Shown one piece after another: positions 2,181-20,681 of a DNA stretch of 64,000 bases. The translations under genes were made by a program, and so were the position numbers. The DNA comes from Streptomyces sp. NBC_00459. GTDB taxonomy: Bacteria; Actinomycetota; Actinomycetes; Streptomycetales; Streptomycetaceae. The notes below the pieces were generated by a model. It was not told the DNA's origin. It was given only the letters and a program-made list of their open reading frames with translations, and ran no database searches. Each line of letters opens with the position of its first letter. Within the stretch, counting starts at the first letter, position 1. Location: assembly GCF_036013955.1 (NCBI RefSeq), contig NZ_CP107903.1, positions 1,550,001 through 1,614,000 of the forward strand, in the 5' to 3' direction.

Positions 2181-3470
2181 TCACTGGTTGGCGCAGGGGG
2201 ACACCGGGGCCGCGTCCAGCCAGGGCAGGTCGTGTCCCATCCGGTCCCGCTTGGTGCGCAGGTAGCGGAGGTTGTGCTCACCCGCCTGTACGGGCATCGG
2301 CTCGCGGCCGGTGACCTTGAGTCCGTGGCGGACGAGCGCGTCGGTCTTGTCGGGGTTGTTGGTCATCAGGCGCACACTGTGGACGCCGAGGTCCTGGAGT
2401 ATCTGCGCGCCGGCGCCGTAGTCGCGGGCGTCGGCGGGCAGGCCGAGCTCCAGGTTGGCGTCAAGGGTGTCGCGGCCCTGCTCCTGGAGCTCGTACGCCC
2501 GGAGCTTGGACAGCAGTCCGATGCCGCGCCCCTCGTGGCCGCGCAGGTAGACGACCACTCCCCGGCCCTCGTCCCGGATGCGTTCGAGGGAGGTCTCCAG
2601 CTGGGGGCCGCAGTCGCAGCGCAGGGAGTGGAAGACGTCGCCGGTGAGGCATTCGGAGTGGACGCGGACCAGGACGTCCTCGCCCTCGCCGATCTCGCCG
2701 TGGACGAGGGCGACGTGCTCGACGCCGTCCACGGTGGAACGGTAGCCGTACGCCGTGAACGTGCCGAAGACGGTGGGGAGCCTGGTCTCGGCCTCGCGGC
2801 GGACGGTGGGCTCGGCGCTCTGGCGGTAGGCGACCAGGTCCTCGATGGAGATGATCGTCAGGCCGTGCTTGCGGGCGAAGGGGATCAGCTCGGGCAGGCG
2901 GAGCATCCTGCCGTCCTCGCCGGCGATCTCCACGATGGCGCCGGCCGGGCGCAGTCCCGCGAGGCGGGCGAGGTCGACGGCGGCCTCGGTGTGGCCGTTG
3001 CGGACCAGCACACCGCCCGGCCTGGCACGCAGCGGGAAGATGTGGCCGGGGCGGACGAATTCGTCGGCGCCGGCGTCGCCGCTCGCGAGAAGCTGGAGCG
3101 TGGTCGCCCGGTCGGAGGCCGAGATACCCGTGCTCACGCCGTGAGCGGCCGAGGCGTCGACGGAGACGGTGAACGCGGTCTTCATCGACTCGGTGTTGTC
3201 GTCGACCATCTGCGGCAGCCTGAGCCGGTCGAGCTCGTCGCCCTCCATGGGGGCGCAGATGAGCCCGCGGCACTCGCTCATCATGAAGGCGACGATCTCG
3301 GGGGTCGCCTTCTCGGCGGCGATGACGAGGTCGCCCTCGTTCTCCCGGTCCTCGTCGTCGACGACCACGACCGGGCGGCCGGCCGCGATGTCCGCGATGG
3401 CCTGCTCGATCGGGTCGAGGGACCAGTCCTCGATGTTGTCGGTGCTGTAGAGGATCGGGGCCGTGGTCAT
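2181..3470 (-). CDS. ribBA: Bifunctional DHBP synthase / GTP cyclohydrolase II
   Basis: This 429-residue fusion supplies both precursor branches of riboflavin. The N-terminal domain (about 15-215) makes 3,4-dihydroxy-2-butanone 4-phosphate from ribulose 5-phosphate and keeps the acidic motif [11 protein letters not shown] (37-47) and [10 protein letters not shown]. The C-terminal domain opens the GTP ring. It has the zinc cysteines in [16 protein letters not shown], the catalytic stretch [12 protein letters not shown], and RLMTNNPDK. Both halves look intact. ATG at 3470 overlaps the ribM stop by four bases (ATGA), so the two genes are probably translationally coupled. The gene is under the FMN riboswitch upstream of ribE. 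Confidence 0.97.
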
Positions 3471-11337: not shown

Positions 11338-13035
11338 CTAATCCTCGGGGAGTTCGACGGGCGCGATCTCGTCGTACACGTCACCGGGGCCCGGGTTGGT
11401 CGGGTCAGTGGTCCCACCGAAGTGGTGCATGACGCCCCAGACCGCGTTCAGCGCGGTCTGGACGGCGCCCTCGGCCCAGCCCGCCGTCCAGGAGATGTCG
11501 TCGCCGGCGAGGAAGATGCCCCGCTTGTCGGCGGGCAGCCGGTCCTGCATGAAGTGCGTGAACAGGCGCCGCTGGTAACGGTAGTGACCGGGCAGGTTGG
11601 CCTTGAACGCGCCCATGAAGTACGGCTCGTTCTCCCAGGAGACGGTGACCGGGTTGCCGATGACGTGCTTCCGGATGTCGACCTTCGGATAGATCTCGCC
11701 GAGCGATTTCAGCATGACCTCCATCCGCTCGTTCGCGGACAGCGGCAGCCACTTGAGGCTGTCGTCGCACCACGTGTACGAGAGGCAGATGACAGCGGGC
11801 CTGTCCGGACCGTCGTCGAGGAGGTAGGTCCCGCGCGTCATACGGTCGGTGAGGGTCATCGACATGACGTCCCGGCCCGTGCTCTCGTCCTTGTCGAGCC
11901 AGAACGGCCGGTCGACGGGCACGAAGAGCTTGCTGGACTCCATGTAGTGGGTGCGCTCGATGGCGGTCCAGTGGTCGATCGGGAAGAGCGAGTCGTCGCA
12001 GGCGATCTTCGAGAGCAGCATCCAGGACTGGGCGGTGAAGACGGCCGCCGGGTACGTACGGATGTCGCCGCCCGCGTCGGTGACGGTGATCCGGTTGCCG
12101 GCGGTGCGGTGGAGACGGGTCACGGCCGGGCGCGGTACGCCGTTCACGTGCAGGGACGCGAGGGAGGTCCCGTACGGCCAGTGGAGGATCTTCCCGGGCT
12201 CGCGTTCCCAGAGCCGCAGCGGCAGTTGCTGGCTGCCGCCCACGATGCCCCGGTGGTGGTCGTCGGCCTCGGTGTAGACGACCCGCAGGATCTCCAGGAT
12301 CGAGTTGGGGAAGTCGGTGTCCCAGCCGCCCGTCCCGAAGCCGACCTGGCCGAATATCTCGCGGTGCCGGAACGACTTGAAGGCCTCGGAGTCGCAGAGG
12401 AAGCCGTAGAAGGTCTGGTTGTCGAGCTTCTCGACGAGCCGTGCCCAGATCTCGCGGATGCGCGGGATGTCGCGCTCGCGCAGGGCCCGGTTCATGTCGG
12501 AGAAGTCCGCGCCCTCTTCGAGGCACGTGTTCCAGGCCTCGGCGACATCACGGTAGACCTGCGGCAGATCGCCGACCGTCTCGGCGTAGTGCGACTCGCC
12601 CTTGAGGTCGACGACCGTCGAAGGTGTGCATTCCGCGAGGGGGTTGGGGAACGGCCTGGTCTCCAGGTCCACCAGGTCGATGTAGTGCTGGAGGGCGGTC
12701 GAGGAGGGCGGGAAGCGCATCGCGCCCATCTCTGCGGTGAGGGAGGGGTCGCAGCCGTCGAACCCGACGGTCCGCAGCCGCCCGCCGATCCGATCGGCCT
12801 CGTACACCACGGGCTTGAGGCCCATCTTCATCAGCTCGTACGCGGCGATGATCCCCGACAGCCCGCCGCCGATGACGGCGACCTCGGTACCGTGCTCGGT
12901 CGCGGGCACCTGCCCCAGGCCGGCCGGATGGGCGAGGAAGTCGTCGTAGGCGTAGGGGAAGTCCGGCCCGAACATGGTGATCGGCGGCTGCTGCGCGTCG
13001 GTGTGCTGGACGGCGGTGGGCACCGTGGACGTCAT
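11338..13035 (-). CDS. Flavin-dependent amine oxidase / amino-acid oxidase
   Basis: This 565-residue flavoenzyme has a Rossmann FAD site VAVIGGGLSGIIAAYELMKMG (begins near residue 52, quoted in part), the second FAD contact VYEADRIGGRLRT, GAMRFP, and the C-terminal amine-oxidase FAD motif GIFLAGDDISWTAGWAEGA. It should oxidise an amine or amino acid, with FAD reoxidised by oxygen. Length and motifs resemble aromatic amino-acid oxidases and 2-monooxygenases. There is no signal peptide. The ATG is preceded by AAGGAG, 61 bases after a carbon-nitrogen hydrolase gene, so the pair is one transcript. If the enzyme is a 2-monooxygenase, the hydrolase would act on its amide product. Confidence 0.85.
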   Translation of the reverse strand: MTSTVPTAVQHTDAQQPPITMFGPDFPYAYDDFLAHPAGLGQVPATEHGTEVAVIGGGLSGIIAAYELMKMGLKPVVYEADRIGGRLRTVGFDGCDPSLTAEMGAMRFPPSSTALQHYIDLVDLETRPFPNPLAECTPSTVVDLKGESHYAETVGDLPQVYRDVAEAWNTCLEEGADFSDMNRALRERDIPRIREIWARLVEKLDNQTFYGFLCDSEAFKSFRHREIFGQVGFGTGGWDTDFPNSILEILRVVYTEADDHHRGIVGGSQQLPLRLWEREPGKILHWPYGTSLASLHVNGVPRPAVTRLHRTAGNRITVTDAGGDIRTYPAAVFTAQSWMLLSKIACDDSLFPIDHWTAIERTHYMESSKLFVPVDRPFWLDKDESTGRDVMSMTLTDRMTRGTYLLDDGPDRPAVICLSYTWCDDSLKWLPLSANERMEVMLKSLGEIYPKVDIRKHVIGNPVTVSWENEPYFMGAFKANLPGHYRYQRRLFTHFMQDRLPADKRGIFLAGDDISWTAGWAEGAVQTALNAVWGVMHHFGGTTDPTNPGPGDVYDEIAPVELPED

Positions 13036-13096
13036 GGGGTACGGACTCCTTGCGGGGTGAAGCAGGTGAAGGGGGTACGGAAAAAACGGGGGAGGC

Positions 13097-13885
13097 TCAG
13101 CCGAGGGAGCCGTACAGGCCGGGACGCCGGTCCTGGAGGTACGGGTTCGCCTCGCGGGAGGCGGCGAGGAGAACGGGGTCGACGTCGGCGAGGAGGAGTT
13201 CCTCGCCGCGGCCGGCCCGGGTGCGGGCGACTCCGTCGGGACCGGCGAGCGTGGAGAGCCCGACGAATTCGAACTCCCCTTCCTGGCCTACCCGGTTGAC
13301 GTAGGCGACGTACAGCTGGTTCTCGAAGGCCCGCACCGGGACGACAGACTCGGCGACGAACTGGAAGGGGTGCATCTGCGCCGTCGGGACCAGGAGGAGG
13401 TCGGTGCCCGCGAGGGCGTGGGCGCGGACGTTCTCCGGGAACTCGACGTCGTAACAGATCATCAGGCCGATCCGGAGACCGTCGAGTTCGGCCTGTACGA
13501 CGGACTGCTCGCCCGGCGTGAAGTGGTCGCGTTCGAAGCAGCCGAAGAGGTGGGTCTTGCGGTAGTTGGCGAGCCGGTCACCGTCGGCGGAGACGAGCTG
13601 CGCGGAGTTGAAGACCTGGTCGCCGGCCCGCTCGGGGTAGCCGTAGGCGATGGCGAGACCGTGTCGGCCGGCGATCTCGGCGACCGCGTCGGCGGAGTCC
13701 CCGTCGGCGGGCTCGGCGAGGTGGCCGATGCCGTCGCCGATCGCGTACCCGGTGAGGAACATCTCCGGCGCGGCCAGCAGCGCGGCGCCCGCGGCGGCGG
13801 CCCGGCCCGCGGCCTCGTCGAGCACCTTGAGGTTCTCGACGAGGGAACCGGGGCGGCCGGAGCTCTGGAGCAGGGCGGTGCGCAT
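13097..13885 (-). CDS. Carbon-nitrogen hydrolase (nitrilase superfamily amidase)
   Basis: This 262-residue nitrilase-fold enzyme hydrolyses a non-peptide C-N bond. The catalytic triad is visible: Glu in LLAAPEMFLTGY (about residue 41), Lys in YRKTHLFG (about 112) and Cys in LMICYDVEFPEN (about 147). It starts MRTALLQSSGRPG and has no leader. It is the first gene of a two-gene unit with the flavin amine oxidase downstream. That arrangement suggests oxidation of an amine or amino acid to an amide or nitrile, then hydrolysis to the acid. The substrate is unknown; omega-amidase-like roles are also possible. Confidence 0.88.
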   Translation of the reverse strand: MRTALLQSSGRPGSLVENLKVLDEAAGRAAAAGAALLAAPEMFLTGYAIGDGIGHLAEPADGDSADAVAEIAGRHGLAIAYGYPERAGDQVFNSAQLVSADGDRLANYRKTHLFGCFERDHFTPGEQSVVQAELDGLRIGLMICYDVEFPENVRAHALAGTDLLLVPTAQMHPFQFVAESVVPVRAFENQLYVAYVNRVGQEGEFEFVGLSTLAGPDGVARTRAGRGEELLLADVDPVLLAASREANPYLQDRRPGLYGSLG

Positions 13886-14029: not shown

Positions 14030-14252
14030 GCCCCCGCCGCCCCTACCCGTCCCATCCTCGGGGGCTGCGCCCCCGAACCCCCGCTCCGGCCCTGAACGGG
14101 CCTTGTCCTCAAACGCCGGACGGGCTGGGGGTGCCGGCCGGGGCTTGATCTTTCAGCCCGTCCGGCGTTTGAGGACGAGCGCCTTCAGCGCGAAAGGGGG
14201 GTCTGGGGGCGCAGCCCCCAGTAACGAGATGGGACGGGTAGGGGCGGCGGGG
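14030..14252. repeat. Family A intergenic repeat, long inverted pair
   Basis: The 382-base gap between the hydrolase and the HAD-EEP gene is filled mainly by two inverted copies of one GC-rich element. The left copy (about 14031-14127) includes cgcccctacccgtcccatc and tcaaacgccggacgggctg. The right copy (about 14154-14250) has the reverse complements, cagcccgtccggcgtttga and gatgggacgggtaggggcg. Smaller hairpins (gggggc-gcgcccccg type) sit inside each arm. Related copies lie at 33276-33389 and 53471-53648. The element may end transcription or be a dispersed repeat; it has no coding capacity that I can support. Confidence 0.8.
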
Positions 14253-14267
14253 GGCGAGGAAAAACCT

Positions 14268-15782
14268 CTACCGGAGCCCGAACGTGGTCAGTACCGCCGC
14301 GTGGTCCGAAGGCCAGACATTGCCGGCCACCTCGGGCCACGCATGCACCGCCCCGCTCACCACCACCCGGGAATCCAGCACCCTCAACCCCCTCCCCCCG
14401 TACAGCACGAAGTCGATCCGGTCCTGCGGCTCGGGCCGGCCACTCCCGTCCTCGTGCTCGACGTGGATCGGCGACCAGGTGTGACCGGGCTCCCGGACCG
14501 GGTCCGGATGCACCTCCCGGTACGAGTCCCGCAGCCCCGCCTCCTGCGCCGCCTTCGTCACCGGCCACTCCACCCCGGGCCAGTCCAGATGCGACGGCGT
14601 GTTGAAGTCCCCGACGAGCACGACGGGCACGACCCGGGTGGAGGCGGCGTCCGCGGCCGCAGCTCCGGTCCGCCGCAGGATCTCCCGCATCCGCTCCAGC
14701 CGCCCCGCCTCCTTGCCGATCACCTCATCCGCCGGAAGCCCGTTGAAGTGGACCTCGTAAGGCCCGTACGGCGCGCAGTCGAGGTGGGCGCTCCAGACGT
14801 CGACCTCCTGCCCCGCGTCCAGCCGGACGCGTACCCCGGTCGCCCCGTAGAAGCCGACGTCCGGGTCACCGTGGTGCGCGGTGATCGGATACCGGCTGAT
14901 GACACCCAGGTTCGGGCCCGCCTGGTGGTGGTACCAGCCGAGCGCCTCCGCCAGTTCCCGGGCGGAGGTGCCGGCGGTCTCCTGAAGACCGACGACGTCG
15001 GCGCCCGTCTCGGCGATGACCTTGAGCTGCTTCGCACGGTGGTCGTCGATCTTCGTACCGCCCAGCCACAGGTTCCAGCTCATCACCCGGAGCTGTCGCT
15101 CGGGGGTGACCATGGCGTCGAGCCGCGCCACGGTGACCCCGGCCAGGCTGGTCAGCACCGTCCGGCCGGGCGCCGCCTCGATCGGCGCGAGTGAGGGAAC
15201 GGCGAGCACCGCGCAGCCGGCCGCCTCGGCCGAGGTGACGCCGGTCTCGGTGTCCTCGACGGCCACGCAGGCGGCCGGGTCGACGCCCAGGGCGTGGCAG
15301 GCGGCGAGGTACGGATCGGGGGCGGGCTTGGTGTGTTCGGTGTCGTCGGCGGTGACGGAGACCGCGAAACGGGAGGCGCCGAGCGCTTTGAGTACGGTGT
15401 CGGCGACAGCCCTGGGGGAGGCGGTGACCAGGGCGGTGGGTATGCCGGCCTCGGCGAGCGCGTCGAGCAGGTCGAGGGCGCCGGGGCGGGGCACGATGCC
15501 GGTGCGGACGCGCACCGCGAACTCGCGGTGCAGTTCGGCGGCGAGGCGGCCGGGCTCCGCCCCCGTGGCGGCGGCCAGCCAGTCGGCGGTGTGCTCGACC
15601 GGCCGACCGAGCACATCGGGCTGGTCCGCCTCGGTCAGCGGTCTCCCGGCGACCTGTTCCACCGCCTCCCACCACAGCCGCTCGGTGTCGACGAGCGTGC
15701 CGTCCATGTCGAACAGGGCTGCCTGGAGCTGGAGTTGTGGCAGGCCGGAGGTGTCGGAGGTACGGGGGATGTGGGGGGTCAC
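14268..15782 (-). CDS. Fusion of HAD phosphatase and endonuclease/exonuclease/phosphatase domain
   Basis: This 504-residue two-domain enzyme has no signal peptide. Residues about 20-225 are a beta-phosphoglucomutase-type HAD hydrolase: FDMDGTLVDT (24-33) with the nucleophile Asp25, VTAS, the Lys in HTKPAPDPY, and the VAVEDTETG metal site. Residues about 232-504 are an EEP domain with all key motifs: SWNLWLGG, VGLQET, SAHLDC, GDFNTP, DRIDFVLY and SDHAAV. Together they could cleave a phosphodiester and then a phosphomonoester. It is the last gene of an ABC importer operon, 28 bases after the ATPase gene. The substrate is unknown. Confidence 0.88.
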   Translation of the reverse strand: MTPHIPRTSDTSGLPQLQLQAALFDMDGTLVDTERLWWEAVEQVAGRPLTEADQPDVLGRPVEHTADWLAAATGAEPGRLAAELHREFAVRVRTGIVPRPGALDLLDALAEAGIPTALVTASPRAVADTVLKALGASRFAVSVTADDTEHTKPAPDPYLAACHALGVDPAACVAVEDTETGVTSAEAAGCAVLAVPSLAPIEAAPGRTVLTSLAGVTVARLDAMVTPERQLRVMSWNLWLGGTKIDDHRAKQLKVIAETGADVVGLQETAGTSARELAEALGWYHHQAGPNLGVISRYPITAHHGDPDVGFYGATGVRVRLDAGQEVDVWSAHLDCAPYGPYEVHFNGLPADEVIGKEAGRLERMREILRRTGAAAADAASTRVVPVVLVGDFNTPSHLDWPGVEWPVTKAAQEAGLRDSYREVHPDPVREPGHTWSPIHVEHEDGSGRPEPQDRIDFVLYGGRGLRVLDSRVVVSGAVHAWPEVAGNVWPSDHAAVLTTFGLR

Positions 15783-15810: not shown

Positions 15811-16869
15811 CTACGGGCGGTTGGCGCGCTCTGCCACCAGCACCGGCCGCTCCGGCAACGACACGTGTACCGCCGTTCCCGCGCCCAGCGTGACGGCCTC
15901 GTGCGCGGGCAGGTCGGCCTTCACCTCCGTGCCGTCCACGAGCCTTACGGTGATCCGGGTGACCGCGCCGAGGAAGGCCGTGGCCACCACCCGCGCGTCA
16001 CCCCCCGCGTCGGCGCCGACCCGCACCGCCTCGGGCCGGACCAGTACGTCGACCTCGGCGGTGGCCGGCGCCTCACCGTCGACCGGGAGCCGCTGCCCGA
16101 GCACCTCGACCGAGCCTGCGTCCAGCCGCCCCGGAATCCGGCTCATCGTGCCGACGAACTCGGCGACGAAGGCGGTGGCGGGCCGGCCGTACAACTCGGC
16201 GGGGGCGGCGCACTGTTCGAGTCGCCCGGAGTGCATCACGGCGACCCGGTCGGCCATGGACAGAGCCTCCTCCTGATCGTGCGTCACGAACAGGGTGGTG
16301 ATGCCGAGTTCCTGTTGCAGCCGCCGGATCTCCTCGCGCAGGTTCAGCCGCACCTTGGCGTCGAGCGCCGACAGCGGCTCGTCGAGGAGCAGTACACGCG
16401 GACGCAGGGCGAGTGCGCGGGCCAGTGCGACGCGCTGCTGCTGGCCGCCGGAGAGCTGGTGCGGAAACTGCTCGCCCTTGTCGGCGAGGCCCACGAGGTC
16501 GAGCAACTCGGCGGCTCGGGCGCGCCGTTCGGACGTACGCACCTTGCGCATCCGCAGCCCGAAGGCCACGTTGTCGAGGGCACTGAGGTGCGGGAAGAGG
16601 CTGTACGACTGGAAGACCATGCCGGCGTCCCGACGGTGGGCCGGGACCTGGGTGACATCCTCACCGTCCACCAACACCTCACCGGCGTCGGGGTGTTCGA
16701 ACCCGGCGAGCATGCGCAGCGCTGTGGTCTTGCCGCAGCCGGAGGGACCGAGCAGCGCGAGCAGCTCCCCCGGCCGCACGGCGAGGTCGAGTCCGTCGAG
16801 GGCGACGGTCGGGCCGAACTCCCGGCGCAGGCCCCGGAATTCGACAGTGGCTGCCTTGTCGAGCGTCAT
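15811..16869 (-). CDS. ABC transporter ATPase (iron/AEP/polyamine type)
   Basis: This 352-residue ATPase powers the importer encoded upstream. Walker A is GPSGCGKTT, the Q-loop region is MVFQSYSLFPHL, the signature is LSGGQQQRVALARAL, Walker B is LLLDEPLSALD, and the H-loop is FVTHDQEEAL. A C-terminal TOBE-like domain (about 240-352, VLVRPEAVRV) is typical of the ferric iron, 2-aminoethylphosphonate and polyamine group. ATG at 16869 has AAGGG at good spacing. ATG at 16878 overlaps the permease stop (ATGA) and is the alternative. The operon order is binding protein, permease, permease, ATPase, HAD-EEP. Confidence 0.93.
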   Translation of the reverse strand: MTLDKAATVEFRGLRREFGPTVALDGLDLAVRPGELLALLGPSGCGKTTALRMLAGFEHPDAGEVLVDGEDVTQVPAHRRDAGMVFQSYSLFPHLSALDNVAFGLRMRKVRTSERRARAAELLDLVGLADKGEQFPHQLSGGQQQRVALARALALRPRVLLLDEPLSALDAKVRLNLREEIRRLQQELGITTLFVTHDQEEALSMADRVAVMHSGRLEQCAAPAELYGRPATAFVAEFVGTMSRIPGRLDAGSVEVLGQRLPVDGEAPATAEVDVLVRPEAVRVGADAGGDARVVATAFLGAVTRITVRLVDGTEVKADLPAHEAVTLGAGTAVHVSLPERPVLVAERANRP

Positions 16870-16874
16870 GTGGA

Positions 16875-17690
16875 TCATCCCTTGGCGGCGACGGTTCGGG
16901 AACGCCCGCCGAGCCCGGCGAGCGCGAGGAGGAGGGCCCAGGTGACGAGCAGGCTGAGCACGGAGACGGCGACGGACAGCTGGGCCTGCGAGCCACCGAC
17001 GCTGTAGATCCACACGGCGAACGGCTGGAAGCCGAGCAACTGGGCCACCGTGAACTCGCCCAGTACCAGGGCCAGCGTGAGGAAGGATGCGTTGAGCAGC
17101 GCCCCGCGCAGATTGGGCAGCACGGCCGTCACCAGCGCCTGCGCCGGGCTCGCACCGCAGCTGCGGGCGGCCTCGACCAGCGTGCGGACGTCGATCGCGC
17201 GCAGCCCGGCGTCCAGTGCCCGATGGACGAAGGGCAGCGCCATCACGACGTACGCGAGGACGAGGACGACGGGGAAGTCGGGGTTCTGGATGGCGACGAA
17301 GGTCTGGAACAGGGGCGTACGGGAGAGGTGTTCGGGACCCCACTTGAGGACCGTCGAGATCCCGGCGACGAACGCGATCGGCGGGACCACCAGCGGCAGC
17401 GAGCAGATCACCTCGACGACCGGACGCAGCCGGGGTGCGCCGAGCCGCAGGGCGACCATCGCGGGCACCATCAGCAGCAGGACCACGGCGATGGTGGCGG
17501 CGGCCAGTTCGAGGGAGAGCACCAGACCGGGCAGGAAGCCGTCGGCGCCGACGATCTGGCCGTACGCGTCGAAGGTGACGCCCTCGCCCGGTACGTCGAC
17601 CGTGAAGATCACGGAGGCGGCGAGCGGGACGATGAAGTAGACCGCGGCGCCGATCAGGACGACCCCGCGCCACAGGTTCAGGCGAGCCAT
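16875..17690 (-). CDS. ABC transporter permease, second subunit
   Basis: This 271-residue inner-membrane protein has about six hydrophobic segments and the EAA-type cytoplasmic loop LVEAARSCGASPAQALVTAVLPNLR (about residues 170-195; core EAARSCGAS). The start is ATG at 17690, overlapping the first permease gene by 13 bases. Its stop overlaps a possible ATPase start. With its partner it should form the channel of a binding-protein-dependent importer of the 2-aminoethylphosphonate/iron/polyamine group. The substrate is not known. Confidence 0.92.
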   Translation of the reverse strand: MARLNLWRGVVLIGAAVYFIVPLAASVIFTVDVPGEGVTFDAYGQIVGADGFLPGLVLSLELAAATIAVVLLLMVPAMVALRLGAPRLRPVVEVICSLPLVVPPIAFVAGISTVLKWGPEHLSRTPLFQTFVAIQNPDFPVVLVLAYVVMALPFVHRALDAGLRAIDVRTLVEAARSCGASPAQALVTAVLPNLRGALLNASFLTLALVLGEFTVAQLLGFQPFAVWIYSVGGSQAQLSVAVSVLSLLVTWALLLALAGLGGRSRTVAAKG

Positions 17691-18574
17691 CGCGCGCTCC
17701 TCCGTTGCAGGGGCAGGTACACGGCCATGACCAGGCCCGCGACAAGGACCATGTCGAGGCTGAGGGCGAGCGCCACGTTCTCCTGGCCGACCAGCACGTT
17801 GCCGGAGATGGCGTCGGCGATCTGGAGAGTAACCAGCGGGACCGAACTGCCCACCATGGCCGCGGCGGTGGCGTACGCGGCGAAGGCGCTGCCGAAGAGG
17901 AGCACGAACCCGCCGAGCAGTGAGGGCAGCAGCACGGGCAGGGCGACGTGCTGCCAGTACTGGACGTTGGTGGCCCCGTTGTTCCGCGCGGCCTCGCGCC
18001 ACTGGGACCGCAGGCCGTCGAGCGCGGGCGTGATCGTGAGGACCATCAGCGGGATCAGGAAGTAGAGGTAGACGATCACCAGTCCCCAGAAGCTGTAGAG
18101 GCTCCAGCCCTTGTCCGTCAGCCCCAAGTGCCGGGTCAGCACACCGGAGTTGCCGAGGGTGGCGACGAAGGCGAAGGCCAGCGGCACTCCGCCGAAGTTG
18201 GCGAGGACCCCGGAGGCGGTGAGCACGGCCTCGCGCAACGCCCGGAACCGCGAGGACACCACGGCCTGGGCGAGCAGCAGTCCGAGGACGGTCGCGATGA
18301 GCGCCGACACCGCCGACAGCTTGACGCTGCCGAGCAGGGCGGTGAGATACGCGCCCTGGAGGGAGTCGGTCAGATTGGCTGTGGTGTACGAACTGGCGCC
18401 GGTGGCCTGGTTCTTGACGGTGAAGGCGCCGTTCAGCATGGCCAGGGCGGGCACCCCGAAGGCGACCGCCACGAAGGCGAGCAGCGGCAGTACGGCGAGC
18501 CAGCCGGGGGCGCGGCGCCGCCGCTTCACTGAAGCGGCGGGCGCCACGTCGACCCGGGTGAGGGTGGCGGTCAT
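17678..18574 (-). CDS. ABC transporter permease, first subunit
   Basis: This 298-residue membrane protein has about six transmembrane segments after a basic N-terminus (VKRRRRAPGW). The EAA loop is QWREAARNNGATNVQYWQHVALP (core REAARNNGAT). A periplasmic-side stretch (about 45-75, KNQATGASSYTTANLTDS) precedes the conserved membrane domain. ATG at 18574 overlaps the stop of the binding-protein gene (ATGA), so the two are probably coupled. It pairs with the permease encoded immediately downstream. Confidence 0.92.
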   Translation of the reverse strand: MTATLTRVDVAPAASVKRRRRAPGWLAVLPLLAFVAVAFGVPALAMLNGAFTVKNQATGASSYTTANLTDSLQGAYLTALLGSVKLSAVSALIATVLGLLLAQAVVSSRFRALREAVLTASGVLANFGGVPLAFAFVATLGNSGVLTRHLGLTDKGWSLYSFWGLVIVYLYFLIPLMVLTITPALDGLRSQWREAARNNGATNVQYWQHVALPVLLPSLLGGFVLLFGSAFAAYATAAAMVGSSVPLVTLQIADAISGNVLVGQENVALALSLDMVLVAGLVMAVYLPLQRRSARWLA

Positions 18575-19728
18575 CCGGAGACGGCCTTGCCCCAGCCCTG
18601 GGCCAGCACGGTCTTGGCCTTGCTCTGCTGGGCCTCGGTCGGGAAGGACGGCGTGCCGGAGACCTTGGGCAGCTTGGCTGCGGCTGCCTTGTCGAGGGTG
18701 CCGGCCTTCTCCATGGCGGTCATCAGGGCCGGCCGGGCGTACCCCTTGAGCCAGAGGTTCTGCCCCTCGGCGCTGTAGAGGTACTCCTGCCACAGCCGGG
18801 CGGCGGCCGGGTGCGGGGCGTCCTTGTTGATGGCCTGGGAGTAGAACTGGGAGAACTCGCCGTCGCCGGGCACGGACACCGTCCAGTCGACGCCCTTGGA
18901 CTTGAACTCGTCGGCGTAACCGGCGTTGAGGTAGTCCCAGTCGATGCTGATGGGCGTCTCGCCCTTCTCGACGGTGGCCGGGGTCGACTCGACGGGCGTG
19001 TAGTTGCCGTTCTTCTTCAGCTTGGCGAAGAAGTCGAGGCCGGGCTGGATGTCGTCGAAGGATCCGCCACTGGCGAGCGAGGCCGCCCAGACGCCGGCGA
19101 AGGCCGAGCCGGACTTGGTGGGGTTGCCGTTGAGGGCGACCTGCCCCTTGTACTGGGGCTTCAGCAGATCGGCGAAGGAGGTGGGACAGGTCTTCACGCG
19201 CTTGGCGTCGCACCCGATGGAGATGTAGCCGCCGTAGTCGTTGAACCAGCGCCCCTCCGGGTCCTTCTGCCCCTCGGGGATGTCGGCGAAGGAGGCGACC
19301 TTGTAGGGCGCGAGCAGCCCCTGCTGAGCGGCGCTCAGCGCGAACGAACTGCCCAGGTCGAGGACGTCCGGTGCCCGGTCCTGCCCCTTGCGGGAGGTGA
19401 CGGCGTTGATCTCGTCCTGACTCGCCCCGTCGGGGTTCTCGACCTCGATCTTGATGCCGTACTTCTTCTGGAAACCGTCGATCAGGGCGCCGTAGTTGGC
19501 CCAGTCGCGCGGCAGCGCGATGGCGTGGAGCGTGCCCTCCTTCTTGGCGGCGGTGACCAGCTTGGCCAGGCCGCCGAAGTCGGCGGCGGAGGTCGCGGTG
19601 GCCGCGCTCCTGCCGTTCGCGGTGGTCGACGTGTCGTCGGGGGCCGCGCCGCAGGCGCTCAGGGCGAGCGCGGCGACGACGGCGAGGGCGCCGCCGCGGA
19701 CGGCTGTTCTCGGCAGGGTCACGATCAC
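18571..19728 (-). CDS. ABC transporter substrate-binding lipoprotein
   Basis: This 385-residue solute-binding protein has a short basic start, a hydrophobic core and the lipobox LSAC (Cys26 from GTG 19728), so it should be anchored on the outer face of the membrane. The mature part has the two-lobed pattern of iron/2-aminoethylphosphonate/polyamine binders: PRDWANYGALIDGFQKKYGIKI near the start and ISIDWDYLNAGY in the middle. GTG at 19728 sits close behind GGAGAG; GTG at 19722 is equally possible. It is first in the operon and divergent from a GntR/UTRA regulator. Confidence 0.92.
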   Translation of the reverse strand: MIVTLPRTAVRGGALAVVAALALSACGAAPDDTSTTANGRSAATATSAADFGGLAKLVTAAKKEGTLHAIALPRDWANYGALIDGFQKKYGIKIEVENPDGASQDEINAVTSRKGQDRAPDVLDLGSSFALSAAQQGLLAPYKVASFADIPEGQKDPEGRWFNDYGGYISIGCDAKRVKTCPTSFADLLKPQYKGQVALNGNPTKSGSAFAGVWAASLASGGSFDDIQPGLDFFAKLKKNGNYTPVESTPATVEKGETPISIDWDYLNAGYADEFKSKGVDWTVSVPGDGEFSQFYSQAINKDAPHPAAARLWQEYLYSAEGQNLWLKGYARPALMTAMEKAGTLDKAAAAKLPKVSGTPSFPTEAQQSKAKTVLAQGWGKAVSG

Positions 19729-19770: not shown

Positions 19771-19788
19771 AACTTGTCTGAACAAGTT
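19771..19788. promoter_or_regulatory. Likely GntR (HutC) operator in divergent region
   Basis: AACTTGTCTGAACAAGTT is an inverted repeat with 7-bp arms and a 4-base centre, 43 bases upstream of the binding-protein start. The TTGT-N4-ACAA form fits operators of HutC-type GntR regulators (TTGTCTAGACAA-like), and the divergent gene at 19941 encodes such a protein. The rest of 19729-19940 is more AT-rich than its surroundings and should hold both promoters; I assigned no hexamers. Confidence 0.6.
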
Positions 19789-19940: not shown

Positions 19941-20681
19941 ATGACGGCGCGACACGAGGAGATCGCCGACGAGCTGCGCCGGGCGATCGACCGCGAGCAG
20001 TACACGGTCGGCAGCCGTCTGCCTCCGGAAACCGAACTCGCCGCCCACTACGGCGTGGCCCGCGGTACGGTCCGCCAGGCGGTGGCGGCCCTGACGGCCG
20101 AGGGCCTGATCGGCTCCCGCCAGGGCGCCCGCCGGGTGGTCCTGGCCAGCCGCCGCAGCCAGACCTTCGAGGAACTGCGCAGCTTCGCCCAGTGGGCCCG
20201 CGCCATGGGCCGCGAGGCGACGGGCCAGGTGGTGCACCAGGAGTACCGCCGGGCGACGACGGAGGACGCGATCCGCCTCCAACTCCGCGAGAAGACCAAG
20301 GTGTTGCACGTCCTGCGCGTGCGCGGCCTGGACGGCGAACCGGTCCTCCTGGAGCGCACGGTCTACGCCGACTGGATCGCCCCGTCCGTGGAACCCATCG
20401 AACCGGACTGTCCCTCGGTCACCCAGCGCCTCTTCGAGGACACGGGCCTGGTCTTCGCATACGGCGAACACGTCATCGACGCCGTGGCGGCCGGCGCCCA
20501 GGACGCCGAACTCCTCGACATCCGCCGCACCAGCCCTCTCCTGCGCGTCCGCCGCGTCACGACGACGAGGGAGGGCCGCCCGGTCGAATGGTCCGACGAC
20601 CGCTACCGGGGCGACGCGGTGAGCTTCAGCGTCCACAACTCGATAGCGAGCAACGCCCTCGCGAGAAAGACAGCCGAATAG
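19941..20681 (+). CDS. GntR-family (HutC/UTRA) transcriptional regulator
   Basis: This 246-residue regulator has an N-terminal winged helix (about 5-70: EEIADELRRAIDREQY, SRLPPETELAAHYGVARGTVRQAVAAL). Its UTRA effector domain (about 90-240) contains VLHVLRVRGLDGEPVLLERTVY (quoted in part) and the late motif SPLLRVRRVT. It is probably a repressor of the divergent ABC importer/HAD-EEP operon. Phosphonate regulators such as PhnF and PhnR belong to the same subfamily, but so do sugar and amino-acid regulators. A GGGGAAG ribosome site precedes the ATG. Confidence 0.9.
   Translation: MTARHEEIADELRRAIDREQYTVGSRLPPETELAAHYGVARGTVRQAVAALTAEGLIGSRQGARRVVLASRRSQTFEELRSFAQWARAMGREATGQVVHQEYRRATTEDAIRLQLREKTKVLHVLRVRGLDGEPVLLERTVYADWIAPSVEPIEPDCPSVTQRLFEDTGLVFAYGEHVIDAVAAGAQDAELLDIRRTSPLLRVRRVTTTREGRPVEWSDDRYRGDAVSFSVHNSIASNALARKTAE

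Follow-up and report, generated by a model that had tools for sequence, protein, structure and literature searches.

The window analysed here is a 64,000-nucleotide stretch of Streptomyces sp. NBC_00459 (contig NZ_CP107903.1, positions 1,550,001 to 1,614,000), and it contains an ABC importer operon whose last gene joins a HAD phosphatase domain to an EEP domain (Table 1). The original prediction, made from the letters of the DNA and a list of its open reading frames, described this fusion as one unbroken frame of 504 codons. Such a frame is present, but it lies on the minus strand; the plus-strand reading of the same interval is interrupted by a stop. The predicted five-gene operon, consisting of a substrate-binding lipoprotein, two permeases, an ATPase and the fusion, is there in full, as is the divergent regulator with its GntR and UTRA domains. 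Permeases 1 and 2 overlap by 13 bases, and a gap of 28 bases separates the ATPase from the fusion. The solved structure closest to the substrate-binding protein (SBP) is 5t1p (145 bits), and an alignment of 31 SBPs keeps the aromatic residues W76, Y79, Y142, W161, Y165, W264 and Y296 in 27 to 31 of its members.

Table 1. Features of the operon and its surroundings, in window positions (fusion residue numbers omit the start codon).
Feature	Position	Strand	Remarks
HAD-EEP fusion gene	14268..15782	-	504 codons starting with GTG; closes the operon
HAD-IA phosphatase domain	15198..15725	-	residues 19-194, by Pfam and conservation; DxDGT, Thr119/Ser121, Lys151, Glu175-Asp176
Inter-domain linker	15084..15197	-	residues 195-232; variability highest at about 217 to 229
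EEP (Exo_endo_phos) domain	14301..15083	-	residues 233-493, by Pfam and conservation; Asn236, Glu267, His332, Asp391/Asn393, Asp456, Asp492-His493
ABC ATPase with TOBE_2	15811..16878	-	by Pfam; start on the permease 2 stop in ATGA (start by eye)
ABC permease 2	16875..17690	-	by Pfam
ABC permease 1	17678..18574	-	by Pfam; start on the SBP stop in ATGA
Substrate-binding lipoprotein, SBP_bac_6	18571..19728	-	by Pfam; lipobox LSAC by eye
GntR/UTRA (HutC-type) regulator, divergent	19941..20681	+	Pfam GntR and UTRA domains
Perfect palindrome ACTTGT-N4-ACAAGT	19772..19787		between regulator and SBP; candidate operator
Long hairpin, 23-bp stem	14105..14176	-	3' of the fusion stop; z -7.0 over 14080-14270 as a whole

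Integrity and conservation of the fusion

Both Pfam domains exceed their curated cut-offs, in line with the claim of a complete HAD and a complete EEP domain. The EEP half matches PF03372 with 65 bits (cut-off 24.5) and the HAD half matches HAD-SF-IA-v3 with 61.4 bits (cut-off 29.4), which places them in the EEP superfamily and among the HAD-IA phosphatases, respectively. A narrower assignment of the HAD was not reached, as its best NCBIfam match, TIGR02009 (beta-phosphoglucomutase/YqaB), scores 95.6 bits against a cut-off of 153.35. Two named candidates were rejected, the phosphonatase PhnX for the HAD (TIGR01422, 47.6 bits, cut-off 220) and exonuclease III (xth) for the EEP (TIGR00633, 17.7 bits, cut-off 99.05). 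A profile search of the PDB with the EEP returned only weak, general EEP matches. The predicted lack of a leader peptide holds by eye, none being visible at the N-terminus.

Sixty fusion proteins, out of 197 identifiers, were aligned. Residues D26, T119, S121, K151, E175, D176, N236, E267, H332, D391, N393, D456, D492 and H493 are invariant among them, and the first HAD aspartate, D24, is Asp in 57 with a gap in the remaining three. We take the catalytic roles of these motif residues to be those of HAD and EEP enzymes in general. The catalytic residues within the motifs named in the original prediction are therefore kept in both domains, with the exception of the Asp of AHLD (D334), which is Asp in 37 sequences, His in 22 and Gln in one.

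The fusion is widespread and keeps its place. A protein search returned 979 homologues, and each of the 120 listed carries both Pfam domains, the organisms named being Streptomyces. The suggested search for further HAD-EEP fusions and their context was carried out by scanning species genomes, which yielded 124 stretches encoding a relative of the fusion; the 80 that were kept and fetched place it behind the same ABC importer. The HAD and EEP halves are read in a single open frame in 80/80 of these loci, and the complete order of divergent regulator, SBP, permease 1, permease 2, ATPase and fusion is found in 78, while the two others (L029 and L045) are truncated by contig ends that fall within the operon. 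No extra gene between ATPase and fusion was seen, by a crude frame filter, in the nine loci where this gap is wider. In 11 species pairs, the ratio of nonsynonymous to synonymous polymorphism (pN/pS) is 0.21–0.48 for the HAD and 0.22–0.42 for the EEP, and both halves of the fusion are under purifying selection.

The original prediction had allowed that a sequencing error might have joined two genes, or that the homologues might be separate and unlinked to the transporter. With one open frame at all 80 loci and both domains in the 120 listed homologues, an artificial fusion by sequencing or assembly error has virtually no chance of being the explanation, and the frames, the homologues, the pN/pS values and the linkage together also rule out a chance frame. 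The homologues are likewise linked to the transporter, as the 78 complete loci attest. Stand-alone EEP genes were looked for among the close matches and none was accepted: four shorter matches (P0121, P0137, P0138 and P0192), three of them EEP-only and one partial, look like truncated fusions because their starts lie inside the HAD or its tail.

The operon also has a recognizable beginning and end. The perfect palindrome occurs in 78/78 loci that have the interval between regulator and SBP, as well as in the window. It is present once each in 78 of 105 loci and absent from the other 27, and occurs once in the window's 64 kb. When the window's stretch was shuffled 2000 times by mononucleotide, no shuffle came within 0–1 mismatch of it, 8 reached 2 mismatches and 79 reached 3. 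The palindrome resembles known sites of the HutC subfamily, and we infer that the regulator binds it. At the other end, the long hairpin after the fusion, which we take to be of a kind repeated in Streptomyces genomes, indicates that the operon probably ends there. Beyond it, a flavin amine oxidase gene and a carbon-nitrogen hydrolase gene (window 11338–13885) both occur at 67 of the 80 fusion loci; their distance from the operon varies, and the pair is therefore probably a separate unit.

Sister operons and relatives of the importer

The wider spread of the system was examined in 394 genomes of the class, drawn evenly and including 40 from the window's genus. A full-length fusion was found in nine of them, all in this genus (9/40), and the SBP in 102 (E 1e-60 or better). 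An SBP at least 89% identical is found in these nine genomes and in no others of the sample. The sample holds 120 SBP places, of which eight of the window's type, from fusion-carrying genomes, were left out and 112 were analysed (105 newly fetched and 7 earlier). The ATPase was not found in the stretch for 29 of the 112, leaving 83 loci in which the slot behind it was searched by tblastn with the window's HAD, the window's EEP and one Nonomuraea HAD.

A stand-alone HAD directly follows the ATPase in 16 of these 83 loci and a HAD-EEP fusion in two, one of the window's type (L207) and one from another family (L155). Over the 112 stretches, matches to the HAD lie 18 times in the slot behind the ATPase versus five times elsewhere. 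Because 16 sister operons end in a HAD alone, the HAD is the recurrent partner of the importer and the EEP an added module. The divergent regulator is present in 25 of the 112 places, comprising all 18 HAD-type loci, five others and two without an ATPase. A palindrome with 0–1 mismatch accompanies it in 21 of the 25 (16 HAD loci, one fusion locus, and L194, L197, L205 and L209), while L210, L213 and L214 have two mismatches and L155 has four. In L213 and L214 a HAD is positioned behind the regulator instead. A Nonomuraea operon from a plasmid collection also ends in a HAD, of 188 residues, with a palindrome at one mismatch.

In L207, from a fusion-bearing genome, the SBP match falls into two pieces from about position 3163, as if the frame were broken. 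In L149 (genome G332, of the window's genus), a degraded relative of the operon has partial or piecewise matches to the regulator, permease 2 and ATPase and no SBP match; an EEP (54%) remains.

The second fusion (L155:9323–11302, genome G336, family f36) is a 659-residue HAD-EEP frame in the terminal position of the same operon, in an actinobacterial family other than the window's, with a relative of the divergent regulator present. Its HAD occupies residues 23–209 and its EEP residues 374–649; the two are separated by about 160 residues, a part of which resembles by eye the beta-rich N-terminal part of exported-looking EEPs from family f17 (L144–L148). These f17 relatives, 41–48% over the EEP domain and encoded in frames of 517–626 residues, each have a signal-peptide-like stretch and a beta-rich N-terminus; most carry an NWIGLY-like motif and L148 carries NWVGLY (by eye). 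No importer matches were found within the 17–20 kb fetched around them. When the Streptomyces and f36 fusions were forced together in trees from which rows L083, L084, L106 and L108 and identical rows had been dropped, the approximately unbiased test gave p-AU values of 0.124 for the HAD and 0.043 for the EEP. Should the two have arisen apart, this would be a case of convergent fusion.

More distant importers were sampled from plasmids, in 24 SBP loci hand-picked from a set of 302 records ranked in two ways, a non-random choice. Four of these SBPs have no adjoining transporter genes, and 8 of the 20 loci that do have them include a phosphoesterase within the operon or next to it. These enzymes are diverse. 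Besides the Nonomuraea HAD, they include PF01663 phosphodiesterases in Enterococcus (within the operon; a PHP gene lies opposite) and in R. leguminosarum TA1 (beyond an intervening DeoR gene), and calcineurin-like proteins in R. tumorigenes (divergent) and in Roseovarius (at the operon end, where pst-phoU-phoB adjoins). In Roseateles the last genes of the operon encode, by Pfam, a PF01261 TIM barrel and an inositol monophosphatase, Ensifer has the same pair by annotation, and betA adjoins both; Pararhizobium has a sulfatase-like gene with PhnX in front. Within the class sample, a metallophosphoesterase lies directly behind the ATPase in L225, L226, L230, L269 and L298 and on the other side in L257; of the two compared with TIGR03767, that of L225 scores over the cut-off and that of L269 under it.

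Phosphonate enzymes accompany other relatives. An Embleya importer with an SBP 77% identical adjoins TmpA (408.7 bits, cut-off 400) and Phn-HD (216.3 bits, cut-off 214.6). An FAD oxidoreductase precedes the SBP in seven class-sample loci (six f18 and one f14); the sole one tested, that of L224, matches TIGR03364 with 297.3 bits against 285.1, and five of the seven are just 33–36% identical to it. The L224 operon ends in a Phn-HD-like gene whose 182.4 bits lie under the cut-off of 214.6, and four f18 loci have a PhnX-like HAD, of which that of L219 was tested (259.4 against 218.9). Since phosphoesterases and phosphonate enzymes both accompany its relatives, we read the importer family as probably serving organophosphorus compounds that differ in their chemistry.

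What the operon may import

We propose that the operon imports a small phosphate ester, the EEP domain cutting a phosphodiester and the HAD domain then removing the remaining phosphate; judging from the sequences compared here, we give this roughly even odds (about 0.5). The regulator would release its operator when the ester or its product appears, and the SBP and importer would bring the intact ester into the cell. The EEP would act first, cutting the diester to a monoester, and the HAD second, releasing inorganic phosphate, while the alcohol product would feed metabolism. The ligand would be an organophosphate and the products inorganic phosphate and an alcohol. The same succession of import, cutting and dephosphorylation had been predicted, and it fits the domains, the conserved linkage to the transporter and the phosphoesterases at some distant relatives. 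The system does not centre on the EEP step, given the 16 of 83 operons with a HAD alone and the Embleya importer, which neither domain follows.

As to the class of ligand, our guess is zwitterionic esters of the choline/ethanolamine type, that is phosphocholine, phosphoethanolamine and their glycerol diesters. This guess is made by analogy, because the close sister importer of Embleya adjoins TmpA and Phn-HD, by model name enzymes for the phosphonate analogue of phosphocholine, and because betA adjoins the Roseateles and Ensifer loci. A more elaborate form, tentative and on balance rather unlikely, would have an importer lineage that elsewhere serves amino- and trimethylammonio-ethylphosphonates retuned to the corresponding phosphate esters by joining an EEP diesterase to a HAD phosphatase like those at the end of its sister operons, giving a one-protein cytosolic pathway for phosphodiesters of the choline/ethanolamine type.

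Several observations weigh against these proposals. Nothing of the fusion's HAD or EEP kind lies directly behind the ATPase in 65 of the 83 class-sample loci, a count that includes any remoter phosphatases, and for 12 of the 20 plasmid transporter loci the gene tables, which are incomplete, show no adjoining phosphoesterase; one of the 12, in Deinococcus, has a HAD two genes further. The Embleya importer and regulator have neither HAD nor EEP behind them, and the best palindrome there has three mismatches, a level reached by 79/2000 shuffles. Together with the four mismatches at L155, this argues that the locus behind the choline hint and the locus of the second fusion are regulated differently. 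The sister loci that suggest a choline-type ligand, moreover, themselves handle phosphonates and not phosphate esters. Within the window, the SBP and ATPase fall short of the models for 2-aminoethylphosphonate (AEP) importers, and the regulator falls short of the PhnF model: the ATPase scores 400 bits with PhnT2 (cut-off 457.7), the SBP 74.1 with NF011620 (310), 66.5 with TIGR03227 (395.3) and 48.6 with TIGR03261 (392.75), and the regulator 126.7 with TIGR02325 (156.8). By eye, the closest EEPs that stand alone and come from other genera appear to be exported rather than cytosolic. Finally, a single clade of fusion HADs and sister-operon HADs was rejected (p-AU 2e-76), and the HAD slot has therefore been refilled or is shared with paralogues.

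An alternative is that the operon imports a sugar or inositol phosphate, as mono- or diester, for both carbon and phosphorus, the HAD being a sugar phosphatase and the EEP opening a sugar phosphodiester. The named relatives closest to the HAD include sugar and polyol phosphatase models, all under their cut-offs, and the TIM barrel and inositol monophosphatase of Roseateles and Ensifer point the same way. Stand-alone relatives of the HAD (48–56%) on two Streptomyces plasmids (L103:6881–7696 and L104:6944–7654) stand behind genes that look by eye like GH35 and GH38, but neither locus has a match to the importer genes of this operon. On a Parabacteroides plasmid (L107:2952–8227), a distant EEP relative is grouped with a DUF1080 gene, a PF01261 TIM barrel and a pair of Gfo/Idh/MocA oxidoreductases, which suggests a role in sugar or inositol breakdown there. 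The window's operon itself has no sugar kinase, isomerase or glycoside hydrolase by Pfam among the operon genes (genes elsewhere under the same regulator were outside this search), and we consider this alternative unlikely.

A phosphonate cargo, such as AEP or a methylated or esterified derivative from which the fusion removes an ester group or phosphate during breakdown, is suggested by the named models closest to the SBP, ATPase and regulator, which are phosphonate ones, and by the sister loci with TmpA and Phn-HD (Embleya), TIGR03364 and a Phn-HD-like gene (L224), PhnX-like HADs (four in f18) and PhnX (Pararhizobium). However, no window protein reaches the cut-offs of those models, and none of four kinds of carbon-phosphorus (C-P) enzyme sought in the window's genome scores over its cut-off. 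PhnJ was not found by a search that is positive in E. coli, nor TmpA by one that is positive in Embleya, and matches to phosphonatase and Phn-HD all fall under their cut-offs, as they do in 14 control genomes; PhnA and other C-P enzymes lie outside this search. The HAD motif is DxDGT, which we take to be the phosphomonoesterase form, and not the DxAGT of the phosphonatase type. Because the enzymes sought do not exceed their cut-offs and the HAD keeps DxDGT, a phosphate ester is the likelier cargo. The phosphonate esters that the original prediction had listed among the substrates to be assayed are less likely in this genome, and we regard the phosphonate explanation as quite unlikely.

The EEP half might also have no catalytic action on the imported compound, having a regulatory or scaffold function or acting on a nucleotide, so that only the HAD matters. 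The 16 sister operons that lack an EEP would agree with this, as would the pN/pS of the EEP, which exceeds that of the HAD in 5/11 pairs with the largest gap in the closest pair (0.41 vs 0.21). Against it, the EEP catalytic residues tested are invariant in the 60 sequences, bar D334, and a second lineage (L155) has an EEP in the same place. This explanation is very improbable.

Known systems and further observations

The AEP importers (PhnSTUV/PhnS2T2U2, AepXVW and AepSTU) share with the window the component set of SBP, permease function and ATPase, and the window's regulator is nearest to the PhnF model. They differ in that the window's three proteins lie under the model cut-offs and in that its operon has a phosphoesterase fusion and no C-P cleaving enzyme. 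Membership in the PhnS/AepX group was rejected on the named cut-offs, AepX itself having no model in the set. PMC10590968 and PMC8316502 deal with AEP importers and with oxidoreductases that are accessory to AEP catabolism.

AfuABC (hexose phosphate) and P5PAB (pyridoxal phosphate) have SBPs of the same broad family as the window's (4r72/4r73 and 6wce). AfuA and P5PA bind phosphate monoesters, according to PMC4546632 and PMC8427247. Both are distant from the window's SBP (35.8 and 28.3 bits, respectively), in which the S-G-T phosphate motif of AfuA reads S-G-S in one pairwise alignment. We know of no phosphoesterase fusion that accompanies AfuABC or P5PAB importers. In the agrocinopine acc operon, ABC import of a sugar phosphodiester is followed by a phosphodiesterase and then a phosphatase. 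This is the working order proposed here, with unrelated protein families and separate genes. We also believe 5t1p to be the SBP of the Campylobacter Cj0727–Cj0733 operon, which presumably includes a type I phosphodiesterase and a HAD; there the genes would be separate and the phosphodiesterase of another fold than in the window's fusion. The available parts of PMC2527321, PMC3749233, PMC3197622 and PMC4415409 contain nothing bearing on the fusion and leave the Campylobacter comparison unconfirmed. No published HAD-EEP fusion was recognised in the literature searched, which mostly excluded subscription papers.

The comparison provides a testable series of related importers, which carry either no enzyme, phosphonate oxidases, a HAD alone or HAD-EEP. 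Such a series would let the attached enzyme predict the class of ligand and offers a way to ask how the substrate of an importer changes. A further suggestion from the comparison is that phosphate esters may be the cargo of some actinobacterial importers whose genes carry a 2-aminoethylphosphonate annotation. Most phosphorus in soil is organic, and to our knowledge little is known of how Streptomyces takes up intact phosphodiesters.

Lastly, one further member of the 48–56% group of HAD relatives, L082 in the window's own genome, adjoins a metH-like gene (by eye). Copies of the SBP occur without a transporter as well. These copies are 55–67% identical and have no permease or ATPase with them; in L088:5826–10032 and L089:5861–10056 they stand directly behind a gene annotated as a SpoIIE family phosphatase, and in L201, L211, L212 and L221 directly behind a long membrane-type protein that forms one BLAST cluster. 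Such transporter-less copies are possibly ligand sensors made from an importer part.

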